64,000 nt of DNA from Georgenia faecalis (GTDB taxonomy: Bacteria; Actinomycetota; Actinomycetes; Actinomycetales; Actinomycetaceae): positions 372,001 through 436,000 of the forward strand of contig NZ_CP033325.1 of the NCBI RefSeq assembly GCF_003710105.1. The letters run 5' to 3'. Shown here in pieces: positions 1 to 23,211 of this stretch (position 1 is the first letter of the stretch; each line of letters begins with the position of its first letter). The translations under genes were made by a program, and so were the position numbers. The notes under the pieces are model-generated. The model ran no database searches, had not been told where the DNA came from, and saw only the letters and a list, made by a program, of their open reading frames with translations.

Positions 1-3000
1 GACGTGGCCGTCGACGTCGTCGACCCGGGGGAGTCCTTCACCCTGTACGTCACCTTCCCCGGTGCGGGCGAGCGCAGGCTCAACTTCATCGAGGCCGAGG
101 GCAAGGGGGTCTCGCCCACGACGACACCGCGCGTGGCCATCACCGCACCGACGGCGGACCAGACCCTCGAGCCGGGTGAGATCACCGTGACCGCCGAGGC
201 AACGGACGCGGAGAACGAGATCGTCGAGGTCGAGTTCTTCGTCGACGGCGAGTCCATCGGCGTCGACGACGAGGCACCCTACAGCGTCACGTGGGAGGCG
301 ACGGAGGAGTCGGTGTTCCAGCTGACCGCCGTCGCGACCAACGACAACGGCGCCTCGACCACGTCGCGGATCGTGCCCGTCACGGTCGGTGACCCGCTCG
401 GCGGCTTCAGCCAGTTCACCAACGCCGGCGGCGAGTTCTCACGGGGTGAGGACGGGTCCTTCGTCATCACCTCCGGCGGCGCGAACATGTGGAACGCGAC
501 CGACCAGTACAGCTCCCTGTACCTGCCCGCGGGTGCCGACGAGAACTGGTCGGCCACGGTCAAGGTCAACAGCCAGACCAACACCCACGGCAGCGCCAAG
601 GCCGGCCTCATCGTCCGCAACGACATCACCGCACCGGGAGCGTCCCCGGGCTACGCAGCCCTCGGCATCCGTCCGAGCGGTGGGTTCGAGTGGCTGAGGT
701 CGACCAACACCTCCGGCCAGCTCAACGCGTCGACCGCGGCGGGCGCCACGACCTACCCGGCGTGGACGCGCATCGTGCGGGACGGCGACGAGTACACCGC
801 CTTCTGGAGCACGAACGGCGAGGACTTCACCCAGATCGGTGAGCCCGTGACGCTGCCCGGGGCGGCGTCCGTGCAGGACATCGGCCTGTTCGTCACCGCC
901 CACCACGCCTCGGCGCGGAGCACGGTCGAGTTCACCGACTTCGTCTTCGACGACGACCCCGGAGCCGACCCCGACCCGGACCCCGATCCCGACCCGGGGC
1001 CGGTGTGCACCACGACGCTCAGCGACGAGTTCGACGGCGAGGAGCTCGACGCCCAGCGCTGGCCGACGGTCCGCTCCGCCGAGGGCTCGCCGGTCACGCT
1101 CGCCGACGGTGCCCTGCAGCTGCCGGTCACCGGTGCCGACATCGACGGCGCCAACACGGGGCCGATCAGCTTCGTCGGGCAGCCCGTGCCGTCCGGCGCG
1201 TGGCAGGTCGACACCCAGGTCTCCGTCGAGCACGAGCGTCACTGGCAGTACAGCGGCCTCATGCTGCACTCCAGCGACGACGACTACACCAAGCTGACGT
1301 TCACCAAGCACGAGAACGGCAGCCGTTTCCTCGAGTTCTGGACCGAGGCCGGCGGGTCGCGGACCCAGCACGCGCCCAACGTCACGCTCCCGACCGACGC
1401 GTCGGCCTCCGTCCACCTGCGGCTGAGCAGCGACGGGTCGGCCGTCACGGCGGCGTACTCGTTCGACGGCGTGACGTTCACCGCGCTGAGCGGATCGGCG
1501 GTCCTCGACCCCGAGGCCACCATGGGCGTCGTCGCCGCCGGGGACACCGGGGAGCCGGACGCCGTCGCCGTGGTGAACCACTTCCGCGTCACCCCGGACT
1601 CCGACGACGACGGCGAGCGTGAGCCGAGCGACGAGTTCGACGGCGACGCCCTGGACGGGTGCCGCTGGGACCGCACGGTGCGGTACACGGCCGAGAACGT
1701 CTCGGTCGCGGACGGGGAGCTGCGCATCCGCACTGCGCTCGGGGACATCAATAACGACAACCCGATCTCGCCGGAGAACTTCATCCTGCAGACGGCGCCC
1801 GAGGGCGACTGGACCGTCGAGACGCGGTTCCACGCTCCCTTCGTGCACCGGTGGCAGTACGCCGGCCTGCTCGCCTACGGCAGCGACGACGAGTACGTCA
1901 AGCTCGACGTCGTCGCCCGCAACGCACCGGGGGCGGCGCTCAGCCTCGGCGCCGAGCTCGTCTCCGAGGTCGGCGGCGCCTTCGGTGCCGGCGGCAACGT
2001 CGCGGTCGACCTCGACGGTGCGCCCGAGGGGGACTACTGGCACCTGCGGCTGAGCCGGACGGGTGACGACTACGAGGGCTGGGTGAGCGAGGACGGCGAG
2101 AGCTGGACCTCGGTCGGTGCGGTCACGCACGCCGGTGACCTCACGTCCTTCGGCCTCGTGGCGATCGGCCCGGAGCAGACCGAGCCGGTCACGGTCGCGT
2201 TCGACTACTTCCGCCTCGTGGAGGACGACGTCGACGTGGACGCCCCGACGGTGTCGGGCAACGTGCTCGGGACCTCGACCGGTGAGTTCGGACCCATCGA
2301 GCACGGCGGCGCCGGCACGGGCCTCGTGGTCGAGGGGACGGCGACGCTGGAGAAGACCGCGACGGGCACGAGCGTCTCGGTGCGGGCGACCGGCTTGCGT
2401 GCGGGGCAGGAGTTCCCCGCGCACCTCCACGACGGGGCGTGCAGCAGCCACGGCGGTCACTACAAGCACGACCCGGCGGGGCCGGCGGCGCCGCCGAACG
2501 AGATCTGGGTGTCCTCGGACGAGGACCCCCGTGGGGGCCTCGTCGCCAACCAGCAGGGCACCGCCGTCGGTGCCGGCGCGGCTCCCTGGGTCGCCCGTCA
2601 GCAGCCGCTGTCGGTGATGATCCACGAGTCCCAGGCACCGGGGCTGCCGGTCGCGTGCGCCGACTTCGCGGCGTACGACGCGCCGGCCCGCCTCGTCCTG
2701 GACGCGGCCGACGACGAGGGCTCCGGCGTCGACACCGTCGAGTACTCGCTCGACGGCGGAGACTGGATGCCCTACGACGGTGCGGTCTCGGTGTCCGAGC
2801 CGGGCGAGCACACCGTGGCGTTCCGCGCGACGGACGTGGCGGGCAACGTCAGCGAGGTCCAGGAGATCGAGTTCGCGGTCGCCGACGACGGCCCGGCGGA
2901 GCCGGTCCTCGTCCCGGTCGAGAAGGTCTCGATCCAGATGTTCTCGCTCATCCCGTGGGTGCGGGAGGCGGGTCTGCCCGACGTGCTCGCACGCCTGGCG

Positions 3001-4008
3001 AGCATCGGGTTCGAGAACATCGAGCCGTACGGTGGGAACTTCTCCGGGTACACGGCGGAGTCATTCCGGGCGATGACGGACCGACTCGGTCTGCGGGTCC
3101 CGTCCTCGCACTACAACACCAACGAGGCGACCTTCGACGAGACGCTCGCGTTCGTGGAGACCCTCGGTCAGGAGTACGTCGGCTCGGGCGGGTTCGCCTC
3201 CCCGGGCATCGGCTCCTACGAGAACACCCTCGCGACGGCGGCGGCGATGAACCGCCTCGGCGAGCGGTCGGTGGAGGCCGGGTTCGAGAAGTTCTTCGGC
3301 CACAACCACGACGGTGAGTTCCGGACCACCTACGAGCACGAGGGTGAGGTCATGTCGGCGTGGGAGATCCTCGTCGAGGAGACCAACCCCGAGTGGGTGA
3401 CCTTCCAGCTGGACGTCGCGTGGGCCGCGCACGCGGGCATCGACGTCCCGGCGCTCATCGAGGAGTACGGGGACCGGATCGAGCTCCTGCACATCAAGGA
3501 CGCCACGAACGTCGGTGGCGCAGGTCGCCCGGTCTTCACCAAGCTCGGCGAGGGTGAGGTGCCGCTGCAGGAGATCCTCGCCGCGGCGCAGGAGCACGCG
3601 CCGATCGCGTACTACGTGCTCGAGTACGACCAGTCCCCGGTGGGCGAGGAGTTCGCCGCCGAGGGCTTCGAGTACCTCACCGGCCAGCCGGCCGGCGAGC
3701 CCGACCCCGACCCGGAGCCGCTGGACGTCTCGGTGGAGACCAGCGCTCGGTGCGTGGTGGGCCGGACGGTCCTCACCGCCCGGGTGACCAACGGCGAGGG
3801 CGTGCCGGTGTCGGCGGAGATCTCCTCGGCGTACGGGACGCGTTCGTCGGCCTCGGTGGGCGCGGGGGCCAGCGCGCTCCACGCCTTCACCACCCGGCTG
3901 GCGCAGGTGCCGGCCGGGGAGTTGTCGGTGACCGTCTCGGCGACGATCGACGGCGAGGTGGTGACCGAGGTGATCGACGTGCCGTACGCGGCGCACTCGT
4001 GCTCGTGA
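1..4008 (+). CDS. Secreted multidomain protein with C-terminal xylose-isomerase-like TIM barrel (5' end outside window)
   Basis: The frame is open from base 1, so the start and signal peptide lie upstream. Counting from base 4, the 1334 visible residues hold: the tail of what looks like a CBM6 domain (1-36); a bacterial Ig domain (40-129); a concanavalin-like domain (132-316); a DPDPDP linker; two more concanavalin/GH43-C2-like domains (335-536, 540-746); a Cu/Zn superoxide-dismutase-like domain (748-892, with HLHDGAC and HGGHYKHDP); an Ig-like domain (896-962); a sugar-phosphate isomerase/epimerase TIM barrel (969-1229); and a C-terminal beta domain. FQLDV, LLHIKD and VLEYD sit where this fold carries metal ligands. 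Several sugar-binding-type folds around one catalytic barrel suggest extracellular carbohydrate processing, but the substrate is unknown. There is no LPXTG motif, unlike the next gene, whose barrel is a close paralogue. Confidence 0.85.
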   Translation, partial: DVAVDVVDPGESFTLYVTFPGAGERRLNFIEAEGKGVSPTTTPRVAITAPTADQTLEPGEITVTAEATDAENEIVEVEFFVDGESIGVDDEAPYSVTWEATEESVFQLTAVATNDNGASTTSRIVPVTVGDPLGGFSQFTNAGGEFSRGEDGSFVITSGGANMWNATDQYSSLYLPAGADENWSATVKVNSQTNTHGSAKAGLIVRNDITAPGASPGYAALGIRPSGGFEWLRSTNTSGQLNASTAAGATTYPAWTRIVRDGDEYTAFWSTNGEDFTQIGEPVTLPGAASVQDIGLFVTAHHASARSTVEFTDFVFDDDPGADPDPDPDPDPGPVCTTTLSDEFDGEELDAQRWPTVRSAEGSPVTLADGALQLPVTGADIDGANTGPISFVGQPVPSGAWQVDTQVSVEHERHWQYSGLMLHSSDDDYTKLTFTKHENGSRFLEFWTEAGGSRTQHAPNVTLPTDASASVHLRLSSDGSAVTAAYSFDGVTFTALSGSAVLDPEATMGVVAAGDTGEPDAVAVVNHFRVTPDSDDDGEREPSDEFDGDALDGCRWDRTVRYTAENVSVADGELRIRTALGDINNDNPISPENFILQTAPEGDWTVETRFHAPFVHRWQYAGLLAYGSDDEYVKLDVVARNAPGAALSLGAELVSEVGGAFGAGGNVAVDLDGAPEGDYWHLRLSRTGDDYEGWVSEDGESWTSVGAVTHAGDLTSFGLVAIGPEQTEPVTVAFDYFRLVEDDVDVDAPTVSGNVLGTSTGEFGPIEHGGAGTGLVVEGTATLEKTATGTSVSVRATGLRAGQEFPAHLHDGACSSHGGHYKHDPAGPAAPPNEIWVSSDEDPRGGLVANQQGTAVGAGAAPWVARQQPLSVMIHESQAPGLPVACADFAAYDAPARLVLDAADDEGSGVDTVEYSLDGGDWMPYDGAVSVSEPGEHTVAFRATDVAGNVSEVQEIEFAVADDGPAEPVLVPVEKVSIQMFSLIPWVREAGLPDVLARLASIGFENIEPYGGNFSGYTAESFRAMTDRLGLRVPSSHYNTNEATFDETLAFVETLGQEYVGSGGFASPGIGSYENTLATAAAMNRLGERSVEAGFEKFFGHNHDGEFRTTYEHEGEVMSAWEILVEETNPEWVTFQLDVAWAAHAGIDVPALIEEYGDRIELLHIKDATNVGGAGRPVFTKLGEGEVPLQEILAAAQEHAPIAYYVLEYDQSPVGEEFAAEGFEYLTGQPAGEPDPDPEPLDVSVETSARCVVGRTVLTARVTNGEGVPVSAEISSAYGTRSSASVGAGASALHAFTTRLAQVPAGELSVTVSATIDGEVVTEVIDVPYAAHSCS

Positions 4009-4060
4009 GCGCGTGAGCGCGTGAGCGCGTGAGCGCGTGAGCGCGTGAGTGGGTGAGGGG
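4005..4060. repeat. 8-bp tandem repeat (GTGAGCGC) over a stop codon
   Basis: Five perfect copies of GTGAGCGC (4005-4044) are followed by two degenerate ones (GTGAGTGG, GTGAGGGG). The first copy contains the TGA stop of the gene ending at 4008. Such a short array is prone to slipped-strand change, but a copy change would not alter the protein because the stop is in the first unit. Confidence 0.9.
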
Positions 4061-4095
4061 CGGTGGTCCGGCGAGCAGCCGGGCCACCGCCCCTC
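4055..4095 (+). terminator. Hairpin terminator-like structure without U tract
   Basis: GAGGGGCGGTGG (4055-4066) pairs with CCACCGCCCCTC (4084-4095), with further inner pairing of CGGC and GCCG. It follows the stop codon at 4008. No T run follows, which is common for actinobacterial terminators. Confidence 0.6.
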
Positions 4096-4216
4096 ATGTC
4101 GTCCGGGGAGCCGCACAGAGGCGCCGCCTGCCCGGTCCCGTCCGCGACCGTCGGCCCGGGTGGCGCGTGGAATATCCGACCCGGGGTACTTGTAGCGTCC
4201 ATTTGACAGAAGGTCA

Positions 4217-4245
4217 TTGACTGGCGCCACAAGGGGGCTTAGCGT
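4217..4245 (+). promoter_or_regulatory. Sigma70-type promoter for the LPDTG gene
   Basis: TTGACT (4217-4222), a 17-nt spacer and TAGCGT (4240-4245) precede the start codon by about 66 nt. The rest of the 303-bp gap from 4009 holds the tandem repeat, the hairpin and a second TAGCGTCC box at 4193-4200. Confidence 0.6.
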
Positions 4246-4311
4246 CCACCCGTGCCCGGCGATGGGCAACGTAGTCGCATCGCCGTTCCGTGGCCGATCT
4301 AAGGAGTGAAG

Positions 4312-8967
<4,656 letters not shown>

Positions 8968-8980
8968 CGGGCATGACACG

Positions 8981-9023
8981 AGGGCCCCTGGTCCGGCTCC
9001 GGCCGGACCAGGGGCCCTTTCTC
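8981..9023 (+). terminator. Rho-independent terminator
   Basis: A perfect 16-bp stem pairs 8981-8996 (starting AGGGCCCCTGG) with 9003-9018 around a 6-nt loop and is followed by TTTCT. It lies just after the LPDTG gene and before the convergent eboF, so it may act on both. Confidence 0.85.
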
Positions 9024-9106
9024 GTCCGCCCCGTCAGCGGGCTGGCGGCGTGACCTGCCGTCTCTGCCCGGCGGTGGGTGGCGCGGGAGGGAGTGCCGCC
9101 GTCGGG

Positions 9107-10498
9107 TCAGGACCCGGGCCGCGCGACCGGCACGGGTGCGACACCCGCCGCCTCGAGGAGCACGTCACGCACCTCGGTGGCCGCCACCCGGTCGCGGGCG
9201 CCCGCGGGGTCGGAGCACAGCAGCACCGGCCCGTCGGCGGGGTCGTCGGGCAGACGGCCGTGGCTGCCGCGCAGGGGCGAGGGATCCAGCGGGACGACGT
9301 TCATCGTGTAGCGCAGGCCGACCTTCTTGCGCAGCACGGCCGCGCCGGCGCGCGCCTTCACCCAGCGGTCCTCGGGGTCCATGAAGAGCTCCACGGGGTC
9401 GTACCCGGGCTTCTTGTGGATCTCGACGAGCTTGGCGAAGTCGGGGGCCTTGGCGTCGTCGAGCCAGTAGTAGTACGTGAACCACGAGTCCGGCTCCGCG
9501 ACGAGCACGAGCTCGCCCGAGCGCGGGTGGTCGAGCCCGTAGGCGGCCTTGCCCTCCGCGTCGAGCACCTCCGCGACGCCCGGGGTGGCCTCGAGCAGCT
9601 CCTTGATGGCCGGCAGGTCGGCGGGGTCGCGGACGTAGACGTGGGCGAGCTGGTGGTCGGCCGCGGCGAACGCCGGGGACGTCCAGGTGTCGAGCAGCTC
9701 GCCGGTGGCGTTGGTGTGGACGTGGAGGTACCCGGCGCGGCGCAGGACGCGGTTGACGTCGACGGCGCGCGAGACACCCGTGATGCCGTACTCGCTGAGC
9801 ACGACCACCGTGGCGCCCAGGCGCTTGGCGTCCGCGAGCAGCGGCGCGACGGCGGCGTCGACCTCCCGCGCGGCGCGGACCGCCTCGGGGCCGTCGGGGC
9901 CGAACCGCTGGAGGTCGTAGTCGAGGTGCGGGATGTAGGCGAGGGTGAGGTCGTGGTCGGGGAGCACCTTGCGCGCCGCGCCCACGATCCACTGCGAGCT
10001 CTTGATGGACGCCCCGGGGCCCCAGAACGTGAAGAGGGGGAACGGGCCGAGCTCGGACACCAGCTCGTCGTGCAGCGCCGGGGGCCACGTCCAGCAGTCC
10101 GGTTCCTTGCGCCCGTCCGCGTGGTACGCCGGCCGGGGCGTGATCGTGGTGTCGGCGCTGGAGCCCATGGCGTACCACCAGCACACGTTGGCCACGCGGT
10201 AGCCGGGGTGGGTGCGCCGGATCGTCTCCCACACCTTCTCCCCGCTCACCAGCCCGTTGTGCTGGCGCCACAGGAGGATCTCGCCGAGGTCGCGGAACAG
10301 CCAGCCGTTGCCCACGATCCCGTGCTCCGAGGGCCGCAGGCCGGTGAGGAACGTCGACTGCGCGGAGCAGGTGACGGCCGGTAGGACGGTCTCCAGCTCG
10401 GCGCGGTACCCCTGCTCGGCCACCGCCCGCAGGTGCGGGGTGTGCTGGAGCAGGCGCGGGGTGAGCCCGACGACGTCGAGCACGAGGAGCTTCTTCAC
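9107..10498 (-). CDS. eboF: EboF-like alkaline phosphatase/nucleotide pyrophosphatase superfamily protein
   Basis: 463 aa from GTG 10498, whose GTGA overlaps the stop of the upstream gene, implying coupled translation. The protein begins with KKLLVLDVVG (first metal Asp of the alkaline-phosphatase fold) and has LPAVTCSAQSTFLTG, where Thr43 is the likely nucleophile of NPP-type phosphodiesterases. PHLDYDLQRFGP supplies further ligands. The usual SDHGM motif reads SEYGI, so metal binding or chemistry may differ. There is no signal peptide, so it is probably cytoplasmic. It is the last gene of an EBO-type operon; in cyanobacteria the ebo genes are linked to moving a precursor of scytonemin to the periplasm. 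The exact substrate here is unknown. Confidence 0.82.
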   Translation of the reverse strand: MKKLLVLDVVGLTPRLLQHTPHLRAVAEQGYRAELETVLPAVTCSAQSTFLTGLRPSEHGIVGNGWLFRDLGEILLWRQHNGLVSGEKVWETIRRTHPGYRVANVCWWYAMGSSADTTITPRPAYHADGRKEPDCWTWPPALHDELVSELGPFPLFTFWGPGASIKSSQWIVGAARKVLPDHDLTLAYIPHLDYDLQRFGPDGPEAVRAAREVDAAVAPLLADAKRLGATVVVLSEYGITGVSRAVDVNRVLRRAGYLHVHTNATGELLDTWTSPAFAAADHQLAHVYVRDPADLPAIKELLEATPGVAEVLDAEGKAAYGLDHPRSGELVLVAEPDSWFTYYYWLDDAKAPDFAKLVEIHKKPGYDPVELFMDPEDRWVKARAGAAVLRKKVGLRYTMNVVPLDPSPLRGSHGRLPDDPADGPVLLCSDPAGARDRVAATEVRDVLLEAAGVAPVPVARPGS

Positions 10499-11661
10499 AA
10501 GGCCTCCAAGCCGAGTTCGGTCAGTCGGTCGTGCGCCCAGCGCAGCTCGGCGGCCAGGCCCGCGACGAGCCCGTCGTCGTCGGCGGGGCGCAGGTGCTCG
10601 GGCAGCACGGACCACGTGTAGGTCTCCACCTCGAGGTGGTCGGTGAGCGCCCGCGGGCCGCCGACGAGCGCGCGCGCCGCGTCCCGCAGGTAGTCCGCGG
10701 TGCCCTCGAGCGGGGCGTCCGGGGCGTCGTGGACGGGCACGTGGAAGTGCACGCGCCACGGGCCGTCGCCGGCGAGCTCGGCGCCGGTGAGCGCCTCGGG
10801 CAGGTCGTCGACGGCGAGGACACGGCCGCCGTCGTGCTCGCGGACCTGGTGGAGGAACCGGTCCTCGGCGAAAGTGCCGAGCGCGGTGCGGGTCTCCGGC
10901 GCGGTCGGGTCGGCGACGTGCACGGCCGAGGCGAGCTGCGCCTTGACGACGGCGAGGCCGACGCCGTCGAGCGCGGCGAGGGCCTCCGTGGGGTCCTCGA
11001 ACGCCGTGGCCATGTGGCACGTGTCGAGGCAGACGCCGAGCCGGTCCGGGTCGAGGCCGGCGAGGAGGCGCGCGGCGTCGGCCGCCGTCTCCACGATGCA
11101 GCCGGGCTCCGGCTCGAGCCCCACCCGCACCCTCCGCCCGGTGCGCGCCTCCACCCGGGCGAGGCCGTCGGCGAGGCGGTCGAGCGTGGCGCGGGCCCGG
11201 GTGTGGCGCTCGTCGGACCACGGGGTCCGCCACGCGAGCGGCACGGTGGAGATGCTGCCGCGGGCCGCGTCGTCGGGCAGGAGCGCCGCGAGCACCTCGG
11301 CGCAGTCGAGGGTGTAGGCCAGCCGTGCCTCCTCGGTCCAGTCCGGGTGGTAGACCCGCTGCTTCACCTCGGGCGCGTGGAAGCTGGCGTAGGGGAAGGC
11401 GTTGAGGGTGACCACCTCGGCCCCGGCGCGGGCCAGCGCGGACCGCAGGCGCGCGACCTCGCGCGGGGAGCCCGCCAGGTGCGCGGCCGCCTCCGCGGGC
11501 AGCCACAGGCCCAGGCCCAGCCGGTCGACGCCGAGCGCCGCGCGGACGGGGGCGGCGTACCGGGCGAGCTGGGCGACCAGGCCGTCGACGTCCTCGGCGG
11601 GGTGGACGTTCGTGCAGTACGCGAGGTGGACGACCGTGCCGTCGGGGTGCCGGAACCGCAC
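10495..11661 (-). CDS. eboE: EboE metabolite traffic protein (sugar-phosphate isomerase-like TIM barrel)
   Basis: 388 aa from GTG 11661, 4 nt after the stop of the TatD-type gene. The N-terminal LAYCTNVHPAE is the signature of EboE proteins. GLEPEPGCIVE, GVCLDTCHM and VHFHVPVH mark a xylose-isomerase-like barrel with acidic and histidine ligands. Family members are assigned to the EBO metabolite-export system, but no enzymatic reaction has been established for them. The C-terminal part (VETYTWSVLPEHLR) is also typical of the family. It overlaps eboF by 4 bp. Confidence in the family is high; the function is known only at system level. Confidence 0.88.
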   Translation of the reverse strand: MRFRHPDGTVVHLAYCTNVHPAEDVDGLVAQLARYAAPVRAALGVDRLGLGLWLPAEAAAHLAGSPREVARLRSALARAGAEVVTLNAFPYASFHAPEVKQRVYHPDWTEEARLAYTLDCAEVLAALLPDDAARGSISTVPLAWRTPWSDERHTRARATLDRLADGLARVEARTGRRVRVGLEPEPGCIVETAADAARLLAGLDPDRLGVCLDTCHMATAFEDPTEALAALDGVGLAVVKAQLASAVHVADPTAPETRTALGTFAEDRFLHQVREHDGGRVLAVDDLPEALTGAELAGDGPWRVHFHVPVHDAPDAPLEGTADYLRDAARALVGGPRALTDHLEVETYTWSVLPEHLRPADDDGLVAGLAAELRWAHDRLTELGLEAL

Positions 11662-11665
11662 CGGC

Positions 11666-12532
11666 TCAGCCCTGCGCGGTGGCGGGCTCGCCGCGCTGGA
11701 TGGAGTTGCCCGCGTAGGTGCCGGCGTCGGTGACCTCCTCCTCGAGGAGCAGGCGCCCGCTCTGGCCGTAGAACTCCACGGGGTTGCGCCACAGCACCCG
11801 GTCGACGTCGTCGTCGGTGAAGCCCGCCGCGAGCATCGCGCGGCCCGTCTTCGCGGTCTTCAGCGGGTCGCTGCGGCCCCAGTCGGCGGCGGAGTTGACG
11901 AGCACCCGGTCCAGGCCGCGGCGCTGGAGGATCCGGACCATGCGGTCCTCGTCCATCTTCGTGTCGGGGTAGACCGAGAAGCCCATCCAGGCGCCGGCGT
12001 CGTCGACGAGGTCCACCGTCGTCTCGTTGAGGTGGTCGACGACGACGCGTCCCGGCGCCACGCCGACGGAGGCGATGAGGTCGAGGGTGCGCCGGGTGCC
12101 GGCGGCCTTGTCCCGGTGCGGGGTGTGGACGAGGACCGGCAGGTCGTGCTCCCCGGCCAGCTCGAGCTGGCGGACGAAGACGTGCTCCTCCTCCGGCGTC
12201 ATCGAGTCGAAGCCCGTCTCGCCGACGGCGACGACGCCGTCCTTGTCGAGGTAGCGCGGCAGGAGGTCGAGTACCGGCGTGCACCGCGGGTCGTTCGCCT
12301 CCTTGGGGTTGAGCCCGATGGTGGCGTGGTGGACGATCCCGAACTGCGCGGCGCGGAACCGCTCCCAGCCGAGCAGGCCGTCGAAGTAGTCGACGAAGCT
12401 GCCCACCGAGGTGCGCGGCTGGCCCAGCCAGAACGCCGGCTCCACGAGGGCTCGGACCCCGGCGGCGTGCATGGCCTCGTAGTCGTCGGTGGTCCGCGAG
12501 GTCATGTGGATGTGCGGGTCGAAGATGCGCAC
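11666..12532 (-). CDS. eboB: EboB-type TatD family metal-dependent hydrolase
   Basis: 288 aa from GTG 12532; CAGGAGAACGCC upstream gives an AGGAG site 7 nt from the start. All TatD metal-site elements are present: DPHIHM (His7, His9), AVGETGFD, LVHTPH, VVDHLNE and NSAADWG. TatD proteins are metal-dependent hydrolases, some of them DNases, but EBO-cluster members form their own group with unknown substrate. It sits between eboA and eboE with gaps of 25 and 4 nt, consistent with one transcript. Confidence 0.85.
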   Translation of the reverse strand: MRIFDPHIHMTSRTTDDYEAMHAAGVRALVEPAFWLGQPRTSVGSFVDYFDGLLGWERFRAAQFGIVHHATIGLNPKEANDPRCTPVLDLLPRYLDKDGVVAVGETGFDSMTPEEEHVFVRQLELAGEHDLPVLVHTPHRDKAAGTRRTLDLIASVGVAPGRVVVDHLNETTVDLVDDAGAWMGFSVYPDTKMDEDRMVRILQRRGLDRVLVNSAADWGRSDPLKTAKTGRAMLAAGFTDDDVDRVLWRNPVEFYGQSGRLLLEEEVTDAGTYAGNSIQRGEPATAQG

Positions 12533-12557
12533 GGCGTTCTCCTGTTCGGGGGTGGGA

Positions 12558-13223
12558 TCAGGGCTGGGCGAGACGGTCGGCGAGGCCAGCGGCCGCGACC
12601 TCCTCGGGGAAGTCGGCGAGCAGCGCGAGGGCGTCGTCCGGGACGGCGCGGCCCGCGGCCAGGCGCTCGTTCGCGTAGGCGGCGACCATCGTGCCGAGCC
12701 GGGCGTCGGCCCGCTGCGGCAGGCCGTCGACGGCGGCCAGCGGCACCCCGACGAAGAGGCACTTGAGCACGCCCTGGCGCCAGGCGTCGTCGTCGAGGTG
12801 GCGCGTGCCGTACGGACCGAGGGCCGCCGCCACGAGCCGGGTGTCGTTGGTCCGCAGGGCGTCCGCGACGAGCGGGAGCGCCTCGGAGCCCAGCGGGAGG
12901 CGGTCCAGCGCCGCGAGGACCGCCCGCTTCTCGTCGGCGTCCCCGACGCCGTAGAGGTCGGTGACGTCGGCGGCGAGCCGCTCCGGCGGCACGGCCGCGG
13001 CGTGCGCGGCGAGCAGCTCTCCGCGCACCGCGTCCTCGATCCGCGCGGGTGCACCGGACGCGTCCACGGCACCGGGGAGCGGACCGCGGCCCACCCGCCG
13101 GGCGGCGGCAGGGAAGTGCCGGCGGATCGCCGCCGGGTCGGCGGTCACCTCGGCGAGGAGCGTCTCGAACGTCGCGGCGGCCAGCTCGCTGAGCGCGGCT
13201 CGCAGGGGGCTCGGTGCGGTCAT
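12558..13223 (-). CDS. eboA: EboA domain protein
   Basis: 221 aa, mostly helical and alanine-rich. ATG 13223 is preceded by AGAGGAG at 7-8 nt and overlaps the upstream stop by 4 bp. The stretch from GTRHLDD to QGVLKCLFVGVPL matches the conserved core of EboA proteins, which have no known enzymatic activity and occur only in EBO clusters. Its presence is the best single argument that this operon is an EBO system and not a set of generic sugar enzymes. Confidence 0.78.
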   Translation of the reverse strand: MTAPSPLRAALSELAAATFETLLAEVTADPAAIRRHFPAAARRVGRGPLPGAVDASGAPARIEDAVRGELLAAHAAAVPPERLAADVTDLYGVGDADEKRAVLAALDRLPLGSEALPLVADALRTNDTRLVAAALGPYGTRHLDDDAWRQGVLKCLFVGVPLAAVDGLPQRADARLGTMVAAYANERLAAGRAVPDDALALLADFPEEVAAAGLADRLAQP

Positions 13224-14068
13224 CGGACGGCTCCTCTTGAGGCGGTGCGGTAAGCATGGAGCGCGGCGAGCGAACGCGCGGCCACTTCGGGGGCGGAGTC
13301 GCTCTGCCGGCCGAGCTCGACGGACACGAGGCCGTCGTAGCCGGCCTCGTCCAGCGCGGCGAGGACCGGCGGGAAGTCGATGTCGCCCTCGCCGAACTCC
13401 AGGTGCGCGTGGACGTCGCGGCGCATGTCCTCGATCTGGACGTGGGCGAGGACGTCGGCGCACGCGCGCACGCAGGCGTCGGGCGCGGCGTCCTCGTTGC
13501 AGCGGGCGTGGCCGACGTCGAGGGTGACCCGCAGGCGCTCCGGCTCCCCGAGCCGGGACCGCAGGTCGAGGGCGTCGCCGAGGCGGGAGACGAGCATCGA
13601 CGGCTCCGGCTCGACGGCGAGGACGATGCCCGCCCGCTCGGCGTGGGGCAGCAGCGCGGCGACGCCGTCGACCAGGCGGTCCCAGCCCACCTCGGGCGTC
13701 GTGCCCGGGGCGAGGACGCCGGACCACAGGTGGACCACCGGGGCGCCCAGGTCACCGGCGATGTCGATGGAGCGGTGCAGCAGGTCCAGGCGCAGGTCGC
13801 GGCCGGCATCGGAGACGAGGCTCGGCTCGAACTTGCCCCGCGGGTCGAGGAGGTAGGGCGCCCCGGTCTCCACCACCGCGCCGAGGCCCAGGCGCTCGAG
13901 CTGCTGCGCGGTCCGGGCGACGCGCGCGGCGACGTCGTCGGCGAACGGGTCGAGGTGGTGGGCGTCCAGGGTGATCGACGCCCCGGCGTACCCGAGCTCG
14001 GCGATGATCTCCAGGGCGTCGGGGAGGCGGTGGGCGGTGAACCCGTTGGTGCCGTAGGCGAATCTCAT
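13220..14068 (-). CDS. Second TIM-barrel sugar-phosphate isomerase/epimerase in the EBO-type operon
   Basis: 282 aa from ATG 14068, with ATGA overlaps at both ends (14065-14068 with the prenyltransferase, 13220-13223 with eboA). The protein starts FAYGTNGFTAHRLPDALE and contains AVEPEPSML, VTLDVGHARC, HVQIEDM and SVELGRQ, the usual acidic and histidine metal ligands of the xylose-isomerase-like superfamily. Canonical EBO clusters have one such protein (EboE) plus an EboD dehydroquinate-synthase-like enzyme. Here there are two barrels and no EboD in the window, so this gene may take the place of eboD functionally, which is inference. Substrate unknown. Confidence 0.85.
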   Translation of the reverse strand: MRFAYGTNGFTAHRLPDALEIIAELGYAGASITLDAHHLDPFADDVAARVARTAQQLERLGLGAVVETGAPYLLDPRGKFEPSLVSDAGRDLRLDLLHRSIDIAGDLGAPVVHLWSGVLAPGTTPEVGWDRLVDGVAALLPHAERAGIVLAVEPEPSMLVSRLGDALDLRSRLGEPERLRVTLDVGHARCNEDAAPDACVRACADVLAHVQIEDMRRDVHAHLEFGEGDIDFPPVLAALDEAGYDGLVSVELGRQSDSAPEVAARSLAALHAYRTASRGAVR

Positions 14069-14967
14069 GTGGGCGACAGCCTCCTCGTGGCGAGCCGGGC
14101 CAGGGGCCCGACGGCGAGCACGGCGGCCGCGGCCGGCAGGGCACCGGCTCGTGCGGTGAGCGCCGACTGGAGCGGGATCATCCCGCGGATGCCGACGCCC
14201 GTGGCGCGGCGCACCGTCGGGGCGTCGGGGCGGCGGGCGGCGTCGAGCTGGGCGCGGCCGACGGTCCACGCGTAGGTGGCGGCGAGGCCGGCCGCCGCCA
14301 CGCGGGACAGCGGCGCCCCGCCGAGGGCCGCCGTCGTCCGGGACGCGGTGCGGGGCGCGGTGCGGGGCGCCGGGAGGGCGGCGGCCGCGGCGGTGACGGC
14401 CGTCGTGGCGAGCGCGGCCCGCGCGACCGCGGGACTCGTGCCGGTGACCTCGCCCCGGGAGAGCGCGGTGACGGCGACGGTGTGGGCGGTGAGCGTGAGC
14501 GCGGCGGGCAGCGCCGGTCGGACGTTCCCGGCGGCCCCGAGCGCGACGTCGAGCCCCCGGTTGGCCGCCATGACGACCGGTCCGAGGACGGTGGGCTTGG
14601 CGAGCAGGTCGTAGGCCCACACGGTGGATGCCAGCGCGGCGGCGACGGCGAGGTGCCGCCGGCTCACCGCGGCGGCCAGGCCCAGGCCCGCGGCGGTGAG
14701 GACGACGCCGACGCCGAGGGCGAGGCGCGGGCTCACCCGGCCGGAGGGGATCGGCCGCTCGGGGCGCTCGACGGCGTCGAGGTCCCGGTCGGCGTAGTCG
14801 TTGAGCGCCATCCCCGCCCAGTACAGGCACGCGGAGGCCGCGGGCAGGAGAGCGGTCCTGGCGCCCCCGGGCCAGCCGGCGGCGGCGGCGCCGGCCAGGG
14901 TGTCGCCCGGCACGGTGAGCGCCGCGGGCAGGCGCACGAGCTCGGCGAGGTCGCGGGCGCTGGTCAT
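14065..14967 (-). CDS. eboC: EboC-like UbiA family prenyltransferase (SCO3242-like)
   Basis: 300 aa from ATG 14967; an in-frame ATG at 15129 would add 54 residues with no matching membrane or domain sequence, so the shorter form is preferred, although neither start has a strong ribosome-binding site. ALNDYADRDLDAVERPERP is the first aspartate motif of UbiA enzymes and is followed by PIPSGR. About eight hydrophobic helices follow, with YDLLAKP and ANRGLDVALG in the second active-site region. It should transfer a prenyl chain onto an acceptor in the membrane. The divergent polyprenyl diphosphate synthase 340 nt away is a likely supplier of the donor. First gene of the EBO-type operon. Confidence 0.82.
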   Translation of the reverse strand: MTSARDLAELVRLPAALTVPGDTLAGAAAAGWPGGARTALLPAASACLYWAGMALNDYADRDLDAVERPERPIPSGRVSPRLALGVGVVLTAAGLGLAAAVSRRHLAVAAALASTVWAYDLLAKPTVLGPVVMAANRGLDVALGAAGNVRPALPAALTLTAHTVAVTALSRGEVTGTSPAVARAALATTAVTAAAAALPAPRTAPRTASRTTAALGGAPLSRVAAAGLAATYAWTVGRAQLDAARRPDAPTVRRATGVGIRGMIPLQSALTARAGALPAAAAVLAVGPLARLATRRLSPT

Positions 14968-15178
14968 GCGAGGCCGCCCGGGCGCGCGGCGCGCCACCCC
15001 TGGCCCGGGCGCGCGCAGCGCCATCGGCTCGAGCGGGTGCGGGTGGGACCGCTCACGGGTGACCCCTTCGTCGTCGAGGTGATCGGAGCGGCAGGAACCA
15101 CCGCGCGAGCTCGGGGACGACAGCGTCATCGCCCGCCGAACGCTCGCAGGTGCCTGGCATCCCCGGTTCGTCGGCGTG

Positions 15179-15206
15179 AGTCTACCGAACTGGCGGAAGC
15201 CGACAA
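15179..15206 (-). promoter_or_regulatory. Promoter candidate for the EBO-type operon
   Basis: On the minus strand, TTGTCG (15206-15201), a 16-nt spacer and TAGACT (15184-15179) form a good sigma70-type promoter. It faces the prenyltransferase gene and would give a leader of about 200 nt to ATG 14967, or about 40 nt to ATG 15129. Confidence 0.5.
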
Positions 15207-15305
15207 AAGTCGCCCCGATGGCCTCGGAACCCGGGTGCGGTCGACTACGGTGCTGTGATCCCGGTGCTGGGATCCGGTCGAGGAAGACCCCGGATGGAGG
15301 AACGC

Positions 15306-16544
15306 ATGGACCCGCACGAGCAGGCTCGGCGGCCGCGGCGCGGATCTGACGCCGGACCCGGGCTCGTGGACGGCGCAGCGCGGCCGGACGCCGCGGGCAC
15401 CGCCGTCGGGCCTCGTGCCGCTGTCGGACCGGACCCGGCGGGCACCGCCGTCGGGCCGGGCCCGGGGGACGGTGCCGACGGTGCGGCGACGGTCGAGGGC
15501 GTGCTCCTGTCGGTGCTCGCCGACGCCGAGGCCCGGGTGCCGACCCGCGTCACCGGGTACGCGACCCTGTGGGACCAGCTCCGCGTGACGGTGCGCGGGG
15601 GCAAGAAGTTCCGCGGCGGGCTGGTCGTCCGCACCCACGACGCCCTCGGCGGGCGCCGCCGGGACGCGGCCGTGACCGCGGGGGCCGCGTTCGAGCTGCT
15701 GCACGCCGCGTTCCTCGTCCACGACGACCTCATCGACCACGACCTGGTCCGCCGCGGCGTGCCCAACCTGCCCGCGGTGATGGCGGGCGTGGCCGTGTCG
15801 GCCGGGGCCAACGACGTCCGCGCCGAGCGCTTCGCCGAGGCGAGCGCGGTGCTGGCCGGCGACGCGGCGCTGTCCCTGGCGCACGGCATGTTCGCCACGC
15901 TCGACGTCCCCACCGACGTCCACCGGGCGCTGCAGGAGCTCCTGCGCGACACCGTGCTGTTCTCCGTCGCCGGCGAGCTCGGCGACGTCGCCTCCGGCCT
16001 GGGGCTGTGGAGCACCTCCCACGAGGACGCCATGACCGTCGCCGAGAGCAAGACGGCGATGTACTCCTTCCGGGCGCCCCTGCGCGCCGGGGCGCTCATC
16101 GCCGATGCTCCCGACGACGTCGCCGCGCTCCTCGACCGCGTGGGCAGCGACCTGGGCCGCGCGTTCCAGCTCGTCGACGACCTCCTCGGGGTCTTCGCGC
16201 CCGAGGGCGTCATCGGCAAGAGCAACGTCTCCGACCTGCGCGAGGGCAAGGCGACGTCGCTGCTCCTCCACGCCCGGGAGCTGCCCGTGTGGGACGAGGT
16301 GCGCGACCACGTGGGCCGGCTCGACCTGCTGCCCGCCACGGCCGACGTCGTCCGCGGTCACCTCGCCCGCTCGGCGGCCCCGGCCCGAGTGGCGGACCAG
16401 GTGCGCGACCGGCTGGGCGAGGCCGCCGACGTCGTGCGCGCCGGGGACGTCCCGGCGCCGCTCGCCGCGCTGCTCGACGAGGCGGTGCGCACGGTCGGCG
16501 CCTCGCTCGACCGCGCCTGGCGGTTCGTCGAGTCCTGCCGCTGA
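15306..16544 (+). CDS. Polyprenyl diphosphate synthase (trans-isoprenyl type)
   Basis: 412 aa. GGAGG (15296-15300) lies 5 nt before ATG 15306. After a low-complexity Ala/Gly/Pro N-terminus (about 65 aa) the isoprenyl synthase fold follows: GGKKFRGGLV (substrate-binding Lys/Arg), VHDDLIDHDLVRRG with the first DDxxD, ESKTAMYSF, and QLVDDLLGVF with the second aspartate motif; GKSNVSDLREGKATSLL follows. It condenses isopentenyl diphosphate onto an allylic diphosphate; chain length cannot be read with confidence. Its divergent position next to the UbiA-type gene suggests it makes the prenyl donor for that enzyme. Confidence 0.88.
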   Translation: MDPHEQARRPRRGSDAGPGLVDGAARPDAAGTAVGPRAAVGPDPAGTAVGPGPGDGADGAATVEGVLLSVLADAEARVPTRVTGYATLWDQLRVTVRGGKKFRGGLVVRTHDALGGRRRDAAVTAGAAFELLHAAFLVHDDLIDHDLVRRGVPNLPAVMAGVAVSAGANDVRAERFAEASAVLAGDAALSLAHGMFATLDVPTDVHRALQELLRDTVLFSVAGELGDVASGLGLWSTSHEDAMTVAESKTAMYSFRAPLRAGALIADAPDDVAALLDRVGSDLGRAFQLVDDLLGVFAPEGVIGKSNVSDLREGKATSLLLHARELPVWDEVRDHVGRLDLLPATADVVRGHLARSAAPARVADQVRDRLGEAADVVRAGDVPAPLAALLDEAVRTVGASLDRAWRFVESCR

Positions 16545-16633
16545 CGCGGCTGGGCGCGCGCGGCCGGGGCTGACCGGGCGGCCTGACGCGGCGGGGCGCG
16601 CCGCCGTCGGGCCGGGGCGCGCCGCCGTCGGGC

Positions 16634-18277
16634 TCAGGCCGAGGCGAGGTCCTCCGCGTCGATGATCTTGTAGGCGTAGCCCTGCTCGGCGAGGAACCGC
16701 TGGCGGTGCGCAGCGAAGTCCTGGTCGAGGGTGTCCCGGGCGACGACCGCGTAGAAGTGCGCGGTCTTGCCGTCGGCCTTGGGCCGTAGCAGCCGGCCGA
16801 GGCGCTGGGCCTCCTCCTGGCGCGAGCCGAACGAGCCGGACACCTGGATCGCCACCGCGGCCTCCGGGAGGTCGATGGAGAAGTTGGCGACCTTGGACAC
16901 GACCAGCACCTTGAGCTCGCCGGTGCGGAACTCCGCGAAGAGGCGCTCGCGCTCGTTGACGGACGTCGCCCCCGTGATGACGGGCGCGTCGAGCCGTTCG
17001 CCGAGGCCCTCGAGCTGGTCGAGGTACTGCCCGATGATGAGGATCTGCTCGTCGGCGTGCCGGGCGACGAGCTGGCTGACGACCCGGTCCTTGCCGTCGG
17101 CGCTCGCGGCGAGGCGGTAGCGGTCCTCTGCCTCGGCGGTCGCGTAGACCATGCGGTCGCGGTCGCTGAGGGTGAGCCGCACCTCGGTGCACTCGGCGGG
17201 CGCGATGTAGCCCTGCGCCTCGATGTCCTTCCACGGCGCGTCGTACCGCTTGGGGCCGATGAGGGAGAAGACCTCGTCCTCCCGCCCGTCCTCGCGCACG
17301 AGCGTCGCGGTGAGCCCGAGCCGGCGGCGGGCCTGGAGGTCCGCCGTCATCCGGAAGATCGGCGCCGGGAGGAGGTGGACCTCGTCGTAGAGGATGAGGC
17401 CCCAGTCGCGCGCGTCGAGCAGCTCGAGGTGGGTGTAGACGCCCTTCCGGCGGGTGGTGAGCACCTGGTAGGTCGCGATCGTCACCGGGCGGACCTCCTT
17501 GCGGGCGCCGGAGTACTCGCCGATCTCGTCCTCGGTGAGCGTCGTGCGGCGCAGCAGCTCGCTGCGCCACTGGCGCGCGGAGACCGTGTTCGTCACGAGG
17601 ATGAGTGTGGTCGCCCGGGAGCGGGCCATCGCCGCCGCGCCGACGAGCGTCTTGCCCGCCCCGCAGGGGAGCACGACGACGCCCGAGCCGCCGTGCCAGA
17701 AGCTCTCCACCGCCTCGGCCTGGTAGGGGCGCAACGACCAGTCGGCGGTGTCGAGGTCGATGGCGTGCGCCTCGCCGTCGACGTAGCCGGCGAGGTCCTC
17801 GGCCGGCCAGCCCAGCTTGAGGAGGACCTGCTTGAGGTGCCCGCGCTCGCTGGGGTGGACGACGACGCTCGTGGCGTCGAGGCGCTCGCCCACGAGGCCG
17901 GCGGTCCGCTTCGAGCGCAGGACCTCCTCGAGGACCGGGGCGTCGGTGGTGTGCAGGACGAGGCCGTGGACCGGGTCCGCGACGAGCTGGAGGCGCCCGT
18001 AGCGCGACATCGTCTCGGCGACGTCGACGAGGAGCGCGTGCGGGACCGGGTAGCGCGAGAACTCGAGCAGGGTGTCGACCACCCGCTCGGCGTCGTGCCC
18101 GGCGGCCCGGGCGTTCCACAGGCCCAGCGGGGTGAGGCGGTAGGTGTGGACGTGCTCGGGGGCGCGCTCAAGCTCGGCGAAGGGGGCGATGGCGCGTCGG
18201 CACTCCGCGGCACGCGCGTGGTCGACCTCGAGCAGGAGCGTCTTGTCGGACTGGACGATGAGTGGGCCATCAGGCAT
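16634..18277 (-). CDS. XPB-type DNA repair helicase
   Basis: 547 aa from ATG 18277. The N-terminal 190 residues form the damage-recognition-like region of bacterial XPB proteins. Helicase motifs are clear: VLPCGAGKT (Walker A, about 200), LILYDEVHLLPA (motif II, about 295), LGLTATLVREDGRED including the RED motif of XPB, and QEEAQRLGRLLRP (motif VI). It is a 3'-5' ATP-dependent helicase of superfamily 2, thought to act in nucleotide excision repair or transcription. A GACAAT box 6 nt before the start may allow a leaderless transcript. It converges on the polyprenyl synthase; the 90-bp gap contains a short GGGCGCGCCGCCGTCGGG duplication. In mycobacteria the Helicase_C_3 gene adjoins it; here that gene is 7 kb away. 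Confidence 0.92.
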   Translation of the reverse strand: MPDGPLIVQSDKTLLLEVDHARAAECRRAIAPFAELERAPEHVHTYRLTPLGLWNARAAGHDAERVVDTLLEFSRYPVPHALLVDVAETMSRYGRLQLVADPVHGLVLHTTDAPVLEEVLRSKRTAGLVGERLDATSVVVHPSERGHLKQVLLKLGWPAEDLAGYVDGEAHAIDLDTADWSLRPYQAEAVESFWHGGSGVVVLPCGAGKTLVGAAAMARSRATTLILVTNTVSARQWRSELLRRTTLTEDEIGEYSGARKEVRPVTIATYQVLTTRRKGVYTHLELLDARDWGLILYDEVHLLPAPIFRMTADLQARRRLGLTATLVREDGREDEVFSLIGPKRYDAPWKDIEAQGYIAPAECTEVRLTLSDRDRMVYATAEAEDRYRLAASADGKDRVVSQLVARHADEQILIIGQYLDQLEGLGERLDAPVITGATSVNERERLFAEFRTGELKVLVVSKVANFSIDLPEAAVAIQVSGSFGSRQEEAQRLGRLLRPKADGKTAHFYAVVARDTLDQDFAAHRQRFLAEQGYAYKIIDAEDLASA

Positions 18278-22509: not shown

Positions 22510-23211
22510 ATGTCAGCCACAGCAGCGCGGGCAGCAGGAGCGCTCGCCCTGGCCGTGGCACTCGTCGGGGGCTGCGCGGCACCGTCCGCGCAGCCCCCGG
22601 GCGGGAGCGCCACCACACCCGCCGGGTCCACGTCGTCGGACCGCGTGGGCCCGGCGGCTCCACCCGCGCCGACGGCGGACCCCACCGGTCCCGCGCCCGC
22701 GGCGGGCATCGACGTCCCCGTGCGGGACGCCAGCCCGGAGGCCGTCCAGGCCGCGGCCGTCGTCGCCCCGGTCCGCGTCGTCTACCCGGGCCTCGAGATC
22801 GACATGCCCGTCGACGCCGTCGGCGTCGCCCCGGACGGGCAGATGGAGATCCCGCCGGATGCCGCCCGCGCCGGCTGGTACCGCTTCGGCCCGACAGCGG
22901 GCGCCGACGCCGGGGCGACCGTCATCGCCTCCCACTCCGGCTCCGAGATCACCCCGCGGGGCCCGTTCCACCGTCTCGACCGCGCCCAGGTCGGTGACCC
23001 GGTCGTCGTCGTCCTCGCCGACGGGACGGAGGTCACCTACGAGGTGACGTCCGTCGAGGGGATCGCCAAGACGGTCATCGACCTCTCCCGCTACTTCCGG
23101 CGGGACGGCGAGCCCGAGCTCGTGCTCATCACGTGCGGCGGTCGGTGGGACGACGTGCGCCAGAGCTACGACGACAACATCGTCACGACGGCTAGGCTCG
23201 CGGGAAGCTGA
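22510..23211 (+). CDS. Class F sortase, predicted lipoprotein
   Basis: 233 aa. Residues 19-22 (VGGC) form a lipobox with Cys22, so the enzyme is probably lipid-anchored outside the membrane. A Pro/Ala/Gly-rich linker leads to the sortase domain (about 90-230). The catalytic triad can be placed: His142 in VIASHSG, Cys209 in LITCGG and Arg217 in DDVRQSYDDN. Sortases cut a C-terminal sorting signal and join the protein to the wall. Two LPXTG proteins lie in this window (LPDTG near 8863, LPATG near 37245), but the neighbouring DUF4397 protein lacks a motif, so the substrate is open. The stop overlaps the start of the sigma factor by 1 bp. Confidence 0.88.
   Translation: MSATAARAAGALALAVALVGGCAAPSAQPPGGSATTPAGSTSSDRVGPAAPPAPTADPTGPAPAAGIDVPVRDASPEAVQAAAVVAPVRVVYPGLEIDMPVDAVGVAPDGQMEIPPDAARAGWYRFGPTAGADAGATVIASHSGSEITPRGPFHRLDRAQVGDPVVVVLADGTEVTYEVTSVEGIAKTVIDLSRYFRRDGEPELVLITCGGRWDDVRQSYDDNIVTTARLAGS

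Follow-up and report, generated by a model that had tools for sequence, protein, structure and literature searches.

What takes the place of the cyclase EboD in an EBO operon that lacks it is the question raised by a locus of Georgenia faecalis, analysed here within a window of 64,000 nucleotides (NCBI RefSeq assembly GCF_003710105.1, contig NZ_CP033325.1, positions 372,001 to 436,000 of the forward strand). The locus shares with the canonical EBO cluster (eboA-F; Yurchenko et al. 2016, PMC5133447) an EboA domain, EboB, an EboC-like protein, EboE and an EboF-like protein in one operon, but it is without eboD, which encodes a dehydroquinate (DHQ)-synthase-like sugar phosphate cyclase, and it has an extra TIM barrel between eboC and eboA. 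A sequence-only reading of the window had described this arrangement and suggested that it could be a distinct variant. We report what was not visible to that reading: the relatives of this operon carry, with it, a gene for a cyclase resembling inositol-1-phosphate synthase (MIPS), and the window genome is without that gene. Our interpretation, for and against which we find the balance about even, is that the operon represents an actinobacterial, MIPS-type EBO pathway whose MIPS-like gene was lost in this lineage, and that a prenylated, inositol-type cyclitol is made from the output of the housekeeping synthase.

The operon consists of six co-directional genes on the minus strand (14967-9107), which are given below in order of transcription with the region and the gene that lie upstream of them:

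14065..14967, minus strand: eboC-like UbiA prenyltransferase of the SCO3242 family; ATG start; PF01040; NF045897, 374 bits (cut-off 260)
13220..14068, minus strand: extra xylose-isomerase-like TIM barrel of the epimerase/isomerase type; ATG start; PF01261, 141 bits
12558..13223, minus strand: eboA; ATG start; NF035938 EboA domain, 160 bits (cut-off 50)
11666..12532, minus strand: eboB, TatD-like metal-dependent hydrolase, adjoining eboE; GTG start; PF01026, 54 bits
10495..11661, minus strand: eboE, TIM barrel; GTG start; NF035939 (NCBIfam), 429 bits (cut-off 250)
9107..10498, minus strand: eboF, type I phosphodiesterase / nucleotide pyrophosphatase family; GTG start; PF01663, 219 bits
14968..15305, no strand: divergent intergenic region of 338 bp, where Georgenia-type relatives have a MIPS-like gene
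15306..16544, plus strand: polyprenyl diphosphate synthase, divergent neighbour of eboC; PF00348, 142 bits

Overlaps of 4 bp join eboC to the barrel gene, the barrel gene to eboA and eboE to eboF, and the remaining gaps measure 25 bp (eboA-eboB) and 4 bp (eboB-eboE), so that the tight coupling first noted is borne out, as is the assignment to the EBO system by the EboE and EboA-domain models. The eboA product falls short of the narrower EboA_family model NF035937 (69 bits, cut-off 320) and had no match in a Pfam scan; EboB and the EboF-like protein were recognised by their Pfam domains and, in the case of EboB, by its place beside eboE. The eboC product, which carries the Asp-rich stretch NDYADRDLDAVERPERPI, passes the SCO3242-family model, whereas it fails the canonical EboC model NF035940 (134 bits, cut-off 250); the latter is a strict test, because the canonical-type EboC of an Azospirillum operon of the EboD type also fails it, with 89 bits. 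PF01261 matches both the extra barrel and EboE.

The absence of eboD, first noted for the window, extends to the whole genome, which is a single contig of 3.43 Mb, estimated to be 99.98% complete. It contains one strong DHQ-synthase match, which we take to be aroB, with no second DHQ-synthase-like gene over the cut-off, and one NF004852 match, which lies under the cut-off, where the canonical EboD of Azospirillum, used as a positive control, scores 571 bits; for these reasons we conclude that eboD is absent. A second PF01761 match, of 22 bits, was considered as a candidate eboD and rejected, since it falls in an open reading frame (ORF) that by eye is phosphofructokinase-like.

EboE, the MIPS-like family and EboD were then compared across the same 394 genomes of the class. 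EboE was found in 98 of these (90 over the cut-off) and the MIPS-like family in 87, and the two occur together: counting over-cut-off EboE, 84 genomes have both, 6 have EboE only, 3 have the MIPS-like gene only and 301 have neither, while eight genomes with partial-length EboE matches alone gave no MIPS-like match. In five of the six EboE-only genomes the EboE-like gene stands alone, its surroundings giving no further EBO match; the sixth is the window genome. The association is also one of position, with 81 of 94 EboE places lying within 8 kb of a MIPS-like gene. EboD exceeded its cut-off in none of the 394 genomes (best 219.6 bits, cut-off 333), and a separate EboD profile search at E 1e-60, which had no positive control, likewise returned none; the former result, backed by the Azospirillum control, is the one we rely on.

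To these counts we add the operons themselves. Apart from the window's own, 101 EboE places lie over the cut-off, from which 60 loci were fetched, picked to cover genera, with 16 partial-length EboE matches left outside the set. EBO operons make up 54 of the 60, none of them with an EboD match; 50 of the 54 have a MIPS-like gene and 46 show the full order mips-C-barrel-A-B-E-F. The four operons without a MIPS-like gene are L063, L064, L079 and L074. Contig ends cut L063 and L064, and a MIPS-like gene is found on another contig of each genome; L079 is a second EBO copy in a Streptomyces genome with a MIPS-like gene elsewhere; and the genome of L074 (G125) has an unlinked, lower-scoring MIPS-like gene (333 bits). 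A little upstream of eboC in L079, at 15864-16709 of that locus, lies a gene of the inositol-monophosphatase family (PF00459), for which the best NCBIfam model is HisN, under its cut-off.

The six other fetched loci (L062, L077, L083, L098, L104 and L107) were rejected as canonical EBO loci, having no other EBO protein match above 38 bits and no EboD match at E 1e-3, and were kept out of the operon counts. The NCBIfam EboE model may over-call solitary EboE-like genes of this kind as metabolite traffic proteins. By eye, the neighbours of the EboE-like genes in L062 and L077 look like sugar ABC transporter and oxidoreductase genes.

A scan of public genomes based on the extra barrel gave 48 loci, 34 of them strong, the 14 weak ones (L038-L051) being left unused. 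The strong loci come from Georgenia, Oceanitalea, Streptomyces, Actinomadura and Actinacidiphila, and have the order C-barrel-A-B-E-F wherever the contig allows, the one departure being L026, where the EboE match is short and EboF gives none. This order recurs in dozens of genomes and is therefore not a matter of chance. Directly upstream of eboC there is a MIPS-like gene in 25 of the 34; contig ends cut eight more, and L023 is without one. Judging from gene content, the combination of a missing eboD and a second barrel is a swap of cyclases and the usual actinobacterial form of the operon, rather than the distinct variant that had been suspected.

The identity of the MIPS-like family as inositol-1-phosphate synthase is indicated by both Pfam domains, which are over the cut-off in the three proteins scanned, and by its best structure match, the MIPS of Archaeoglobus fulgidus (1u1i, E 5e-101). 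Lysines aligned with K274, K278, K306 and K367 of 1u1i, which we take to be the catalytic lysines of the Archaeoglobus enzyme, are invariant in 18 of 18 MIPS-like proteins, though one PDB sequence among the structure matches has Ala at 278.

A close counterpart is the actinobacterial SCO3242-type cassette, exemplified by a Streptomyces plasmid (L119) whose PGAP annotation reads inositol-3-phosphate synthase, SCO3242 prenyltransferase, sugar phosphate isomerase/epimerase, EboA, TatD, EboE and nucleotide pyrophosphatase. The window has the same six genes, from prenyltransferase, barrel and EboA to EboB, EboE and EboF, in the same order and with the same tight spacing, but the leading MIPS-like gene, present in nearly all relatives with upstream sequence, is found neither upstream of its eboC nor elsewhere in its genome. 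On L119 and a second Streptomyces plasmid (L120), the EBO cassettes stand beside nonribosomal peptide synthetase (NRPS) or type II polyketide synthase (PKS) genes and transporters. In Streptomyces coelicolor, SCO3242 (a putative transferase) and SCO3243 (a myo-inositol phosphate synthase) are listed together among the genes of the CDA cluster in the relevant part of PMC3610822; by analogy with these two plasmids, they may instead be part of an EBO cassette.

The same form extends beyond the class. The same set of seven genes, with no match to EboD, recurs in four EBO loci from other classes of the phylum, one of which has a polyprenyl synthase nearby. A plasmid of Gemmatirosa kalamazoonensis (Gemmatimonadota) yields EboB, EboC, EboE and EboF matches and has MIPS-like and barrel genes with a one-base overlap (L131:2102-4146), again with no EboD match found in the cluster. 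Conversely, in the stretches fetched for four EboD-type loci (Azospirillum, Deinococcus, Ketogulonicigenium and Salipiger) there is no MIPS-like or barrel match.

Within the phylum, the window's nearest relatives are the loci of Georgenia satyanarayanai and Oceanitalea stevensii (L004-L007), which form a sister operon with the same divergent polyprenyl synthase and 59-83% identity by protein (EboB 82-83%, EboF 79-80%; the polyprenyl synthase itself, 54-58%). Unlike the window, these Georgenia-type loci keep a 389-aa MIPS-like ORF between the polyprenyl synthase and eboC. Searching the window genome with two MIPS-like queries, one of which was taken from a genome in the same taxonomic family, recovered nothing but the housekeeping ino1, at 28-29% identity; ino1 scores 688 bits with TIGR03450 (cut-off 638) and is the sole PF01658 match in the genome, which rules out that the MIPS-like gene has moved elsewhere. 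Little weight is placed on the PF07994 search, which was empty in the window genome and missed even ino1, or on the class-wide MIPS-like search, which scored 4 of 33 candidates there. Nor is there a convincing MIPS remnant in 14968-15305: the best blastn match has E 0.024, tblastx matches reach at most 28.6 bits, with the best of them (E 7e-5, from joined pieces) lying outside the MIPS-like ORF, and tblastn of the window with one Georgenia-type MIPS-like protein gave nothing under E 0.28.

We placed the loss with a FastTree phylogeny of EboB, EboE and EboF from the 88 sequences left after the near-identical Georgenia loci L004, L006 and L007 and, by a gap filter, two further loci had been dropped. 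The window is sister to the Georgenia-type loci with a support of 0.991, and the next branch of its clade (L060 and L061) also has the MIPS-like gene; because both keep it, the most economical account is that the window lineage lost it. Among the other genomes of the family, 3 of 60 have EboE, making EBO sparse there. The loss may not be unique: the Streptomyces genome of L035 likewise gave no MIPS-like match, although that locus is cut short by the contig, and L023 is without a MIPS-like gene beside eboC, although its genome has a match elsewhere.

The extra barrel belongs to this operon: it is present in 46 of the 50 MIPS-bearing loci (the exceptions are L082, L084, L102 and L105), and five loci have it as an in-frame fusion with EboA. 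It reaches no equivalog cut-off in an NCBIfam scan. Its AlphaFold2 model (mean pLDDT 92.8) has as best VIA-align match MJ1311 (3wqo; Z 33.3, root-mean-square deviation 1.8 over 260 residues) and most resembles tagatose/ribulose/xylulose-phosphate 3-epimerase-like proteins, followed closely by xylose isomerases. E153, D184, Q211 and E251, which from related enzymes we assume to be candidate metal ligands, are invariant in 17 aligned barrels; in fold and in these candidate ligands the predicted structure is that expected of a sugar 3-epimerase or xylose-isomerase-like barrel. With EboE, it belongs to a superfamily that includes inosose dehydratase and sugar epimerases. That the barrel alone replaces EboD is ruled out, the relatives having a MIPS-like cyclase as well and five loci having no barrel. 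The further idea that the active site of the window barrel was altered after the loss of the cyclase is unsupported: it deviates at 2 of 45 near-invariant columns, the same as L005.

From these parts we infer the chemistry of the EBO operon, and any role that it has in transport, as follows. In the relatives, the MIPS-like enzyme would turn glucose 6-phosphate into inositol phosphate; the extra barrel and EboE would isomerise, epimerise or dehydrate the cyclitol, and EboF and EboB would carry out phosphoester or other hydrolysis. Membrane-bound EboC would then attach a prenyl chain, for which the polyprenyl synthase next to the window operon is a possible supplier of the donor. The resulting lipid-linked cyclitol may itself be exported or may act as a carrier that takes metabolites out of the cytoplasm. 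For the window genome, the proposed sources of the cyclitol are uptake and the housekeeping inositol-3-phosphate synthase of the mycothiol type (ino1). An isoprenoid-cyclitol product has been proposed for EBO in PMC5133447; sedoheptulose 7-phosphate has been proposed as the substrate of EboD on the basis of the protein family.

Several observations weigh against this scheme. The co-occurrence count in the 394 genomes ignores relatedness. The barrel is missing in five operons (L074, L082, L084, L102 and L105) and is thus dispensable; a linked MIPS-like gene is missing in some other EBO copies (L023, L074 and L079); and one Streptomyces genome (G479, locus L035) gave no MIPS-like match at all, its locus being truncated at the contig end. 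Most loci have no polyprenyl synthase nearby: the count is 15 of 96, and six of the 15 are Georgenia-type loci that come from four genomes. The Gemmatirosa cluster has no EboA match. A synthase of five-membered cyclitol phosphates (6k96) also matches the MIPS-like family, and other cyclitols are therefore possible. As to acceptors, the biochemically tested relatives of EboC described in PMC9235831 farnesylate quinoline acids, all 14 acceptors tried there being aromatic, and a Pseudomonas cluster containing ebo genes is tied, in the relevant part of a review, to indole products.

The alternative that stands up best, and which we hold open as a tentative possibility, is that EBO serves primarily to export other metabolites, the prenylated cyclitol acting as a lipid carrier instead of being the end product. 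The ebo genes of Nostoc (scytonemin) and of Pseudomonas (EDB) are homologous to those of the window but have an EboD-type cyclase, belong to other phyla and are known by mutant or expression phenotypes; in Nostoc, ebo mutations are reported in the pertinent section of PMC6282210 to affect the transfer of the scytonemin monomer to the periplasm, for which a prenylated carrier may be used. The biosynthetic genes beside the two Streptomyces plasmid cassettes would fit such a role, as would the EboD of Salipiger (L130:6073-7974), a 633-aa fusion of an N-terminal VTT domain (67.9 bits, cut-off 33.9) to a DHQ-synthase-like domain. The VTT family includes DedA-type membrane proteins linked to lipid movement, and the fusion may tie EBO to the movement of membrane lipids. 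It was, however, seen in one record only, tblastn with its N-terminus finding no other match in the fetched loci or the window; the conserved operon includes no exporter, and the scanned neighbours in the window do not form an obvious biosynthetic cluster.

The operon could also be a decaying remnant of a pathway that was dead once the cyclase carried by its relatives had gone missing, which we think unlikely. All six frames and their overlaps are intact, and the window's branch, in the tree of EboB, EboE and EboF only, is shorter than those of the Georgenia-type loci (0.176 vs 0.25-0.27). Nor is there an excess of changes at near-invariant columns: the window has 0 in EboA, 0 in EboB, 0 in EboC, 2 in the barrel, 0 in EboE and 2 in EboF, never more than L005 with 0, 1, 0, 2, 0 and 2, respectively. 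The short branch and the few changes together mean that nothing suggests decay, and the remaining EBO genes of the window look constrained in their sequences.

We consider it very improbable that the operon is catabolic, with its barrels and hydrolases breaking down inositol or other polyols instead of building a product. IolE-type models match both barrels weakly, far under the cut-off, and Ketogulonicigenium has, beside its EboD-type cluster, a weakly IolE-like sugar isomerase and two Gfo/Idh/MocA genes. In one family, from which the barrel is missing, genes for a sugar ABC importer and a Gfo/Idh/MocA oxidoreductase precede eboC in L074 and the MIPS-like gene in L082, with L084 similar by ORF sizes only. 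The oxidoreductases of L074 and L082, however, score 373 and 378 bits as levoglucosan dehydrogenase against 111 and 112 as IolG, all under the cut-off, and a cyclase with a membrane prenyltransferase in nearly all relatives fits synthesis. Finally, that the missing MIPS-like gene is an assembly error is barely credible, for although one assembly stands behind the finding and the sets searched included no further genome from the genus, the single-contig genome is near complete, the sequence continues without a break across the 338 bp into the divergent gene, and the searches turned up no copy at another place in the genome.

Around the operon, the scanned neighbours are sugar-active proteins, a helicase and the polyprenyl synthase. 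A promoter scan found no sigma-70-like site. One further feature follows eboF:

8970..9030, minus strand: hairpin 3' of eboF with a 16-bp perfect stem; RNA fold -51.5 kcal/mol, z -7.45

It is a possible terminator, which the terminator scan did not list, there being too few T beyond the stem. Window positions 1-8967 encode two large proteins with xylose-isomerase-like barrels, the first also with DUF1349 and GH43_C2 domains, and the second with PA14, 3-keto-disaccharide hydrolase, CBM and collagen-repeat domains and an end that by eye is LPDTG-like; a sortase gene lies at 22510-23211.

Some elements of this picture have precedents. In the parts that concern them, PMC5133447 mentions a barrel-EboA hybrid in Actinobacteria, without data, in 2016, and describes a few individual EBO operons, from other phyla, that are without eboD, so that the lack of eboD alone is not new. 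Among the open-access matches listed, a MIPS-like gene in EBO operons is not described, subscription papers and preprints being mostly outside the scope of that search, so that this weighs little as evidence of absence. We judge the exchange of cyclases, and its loss here, to be the interesting part, the feature first noted being ordinary for Actinomycetota.

A broader proposal, which we offer as rather doubtful in its entirety, is that EBO exists in two forms with unrelated cyclases, one with EboD in several phyla and one with an archaeal-type inositol-phosphate synthase and the extra barrel in Actinomycetota and at least one member of the Gemmatimonadota. If the two are equivalent, the shared intermediate would be a six-carbon, inositol-type cyclitol derived from glucose 6-phosphate and not, as proposed, from sedoheptulose 7-phosphate; EboC would prenylate this cyclitol into a lipid carrier able to flip across the membrane, and the window genome would be a natural deletion of the cyclase that runs on the housekeeping synthase. 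The product of EBO is treated as an open question in the relevant passages of the 2016 and 2018 papers. Throughout the class, EboD gives way to an inositol-phosphate synthase whose aligned lysines are intact, which names a concrete candidate for the building block and makes the cyclitol idea specific: glucose 6-phosphate would be turned into inositol phosphate. The window genome provides a natural experiment, in which the same operon is found without its own cyclase.

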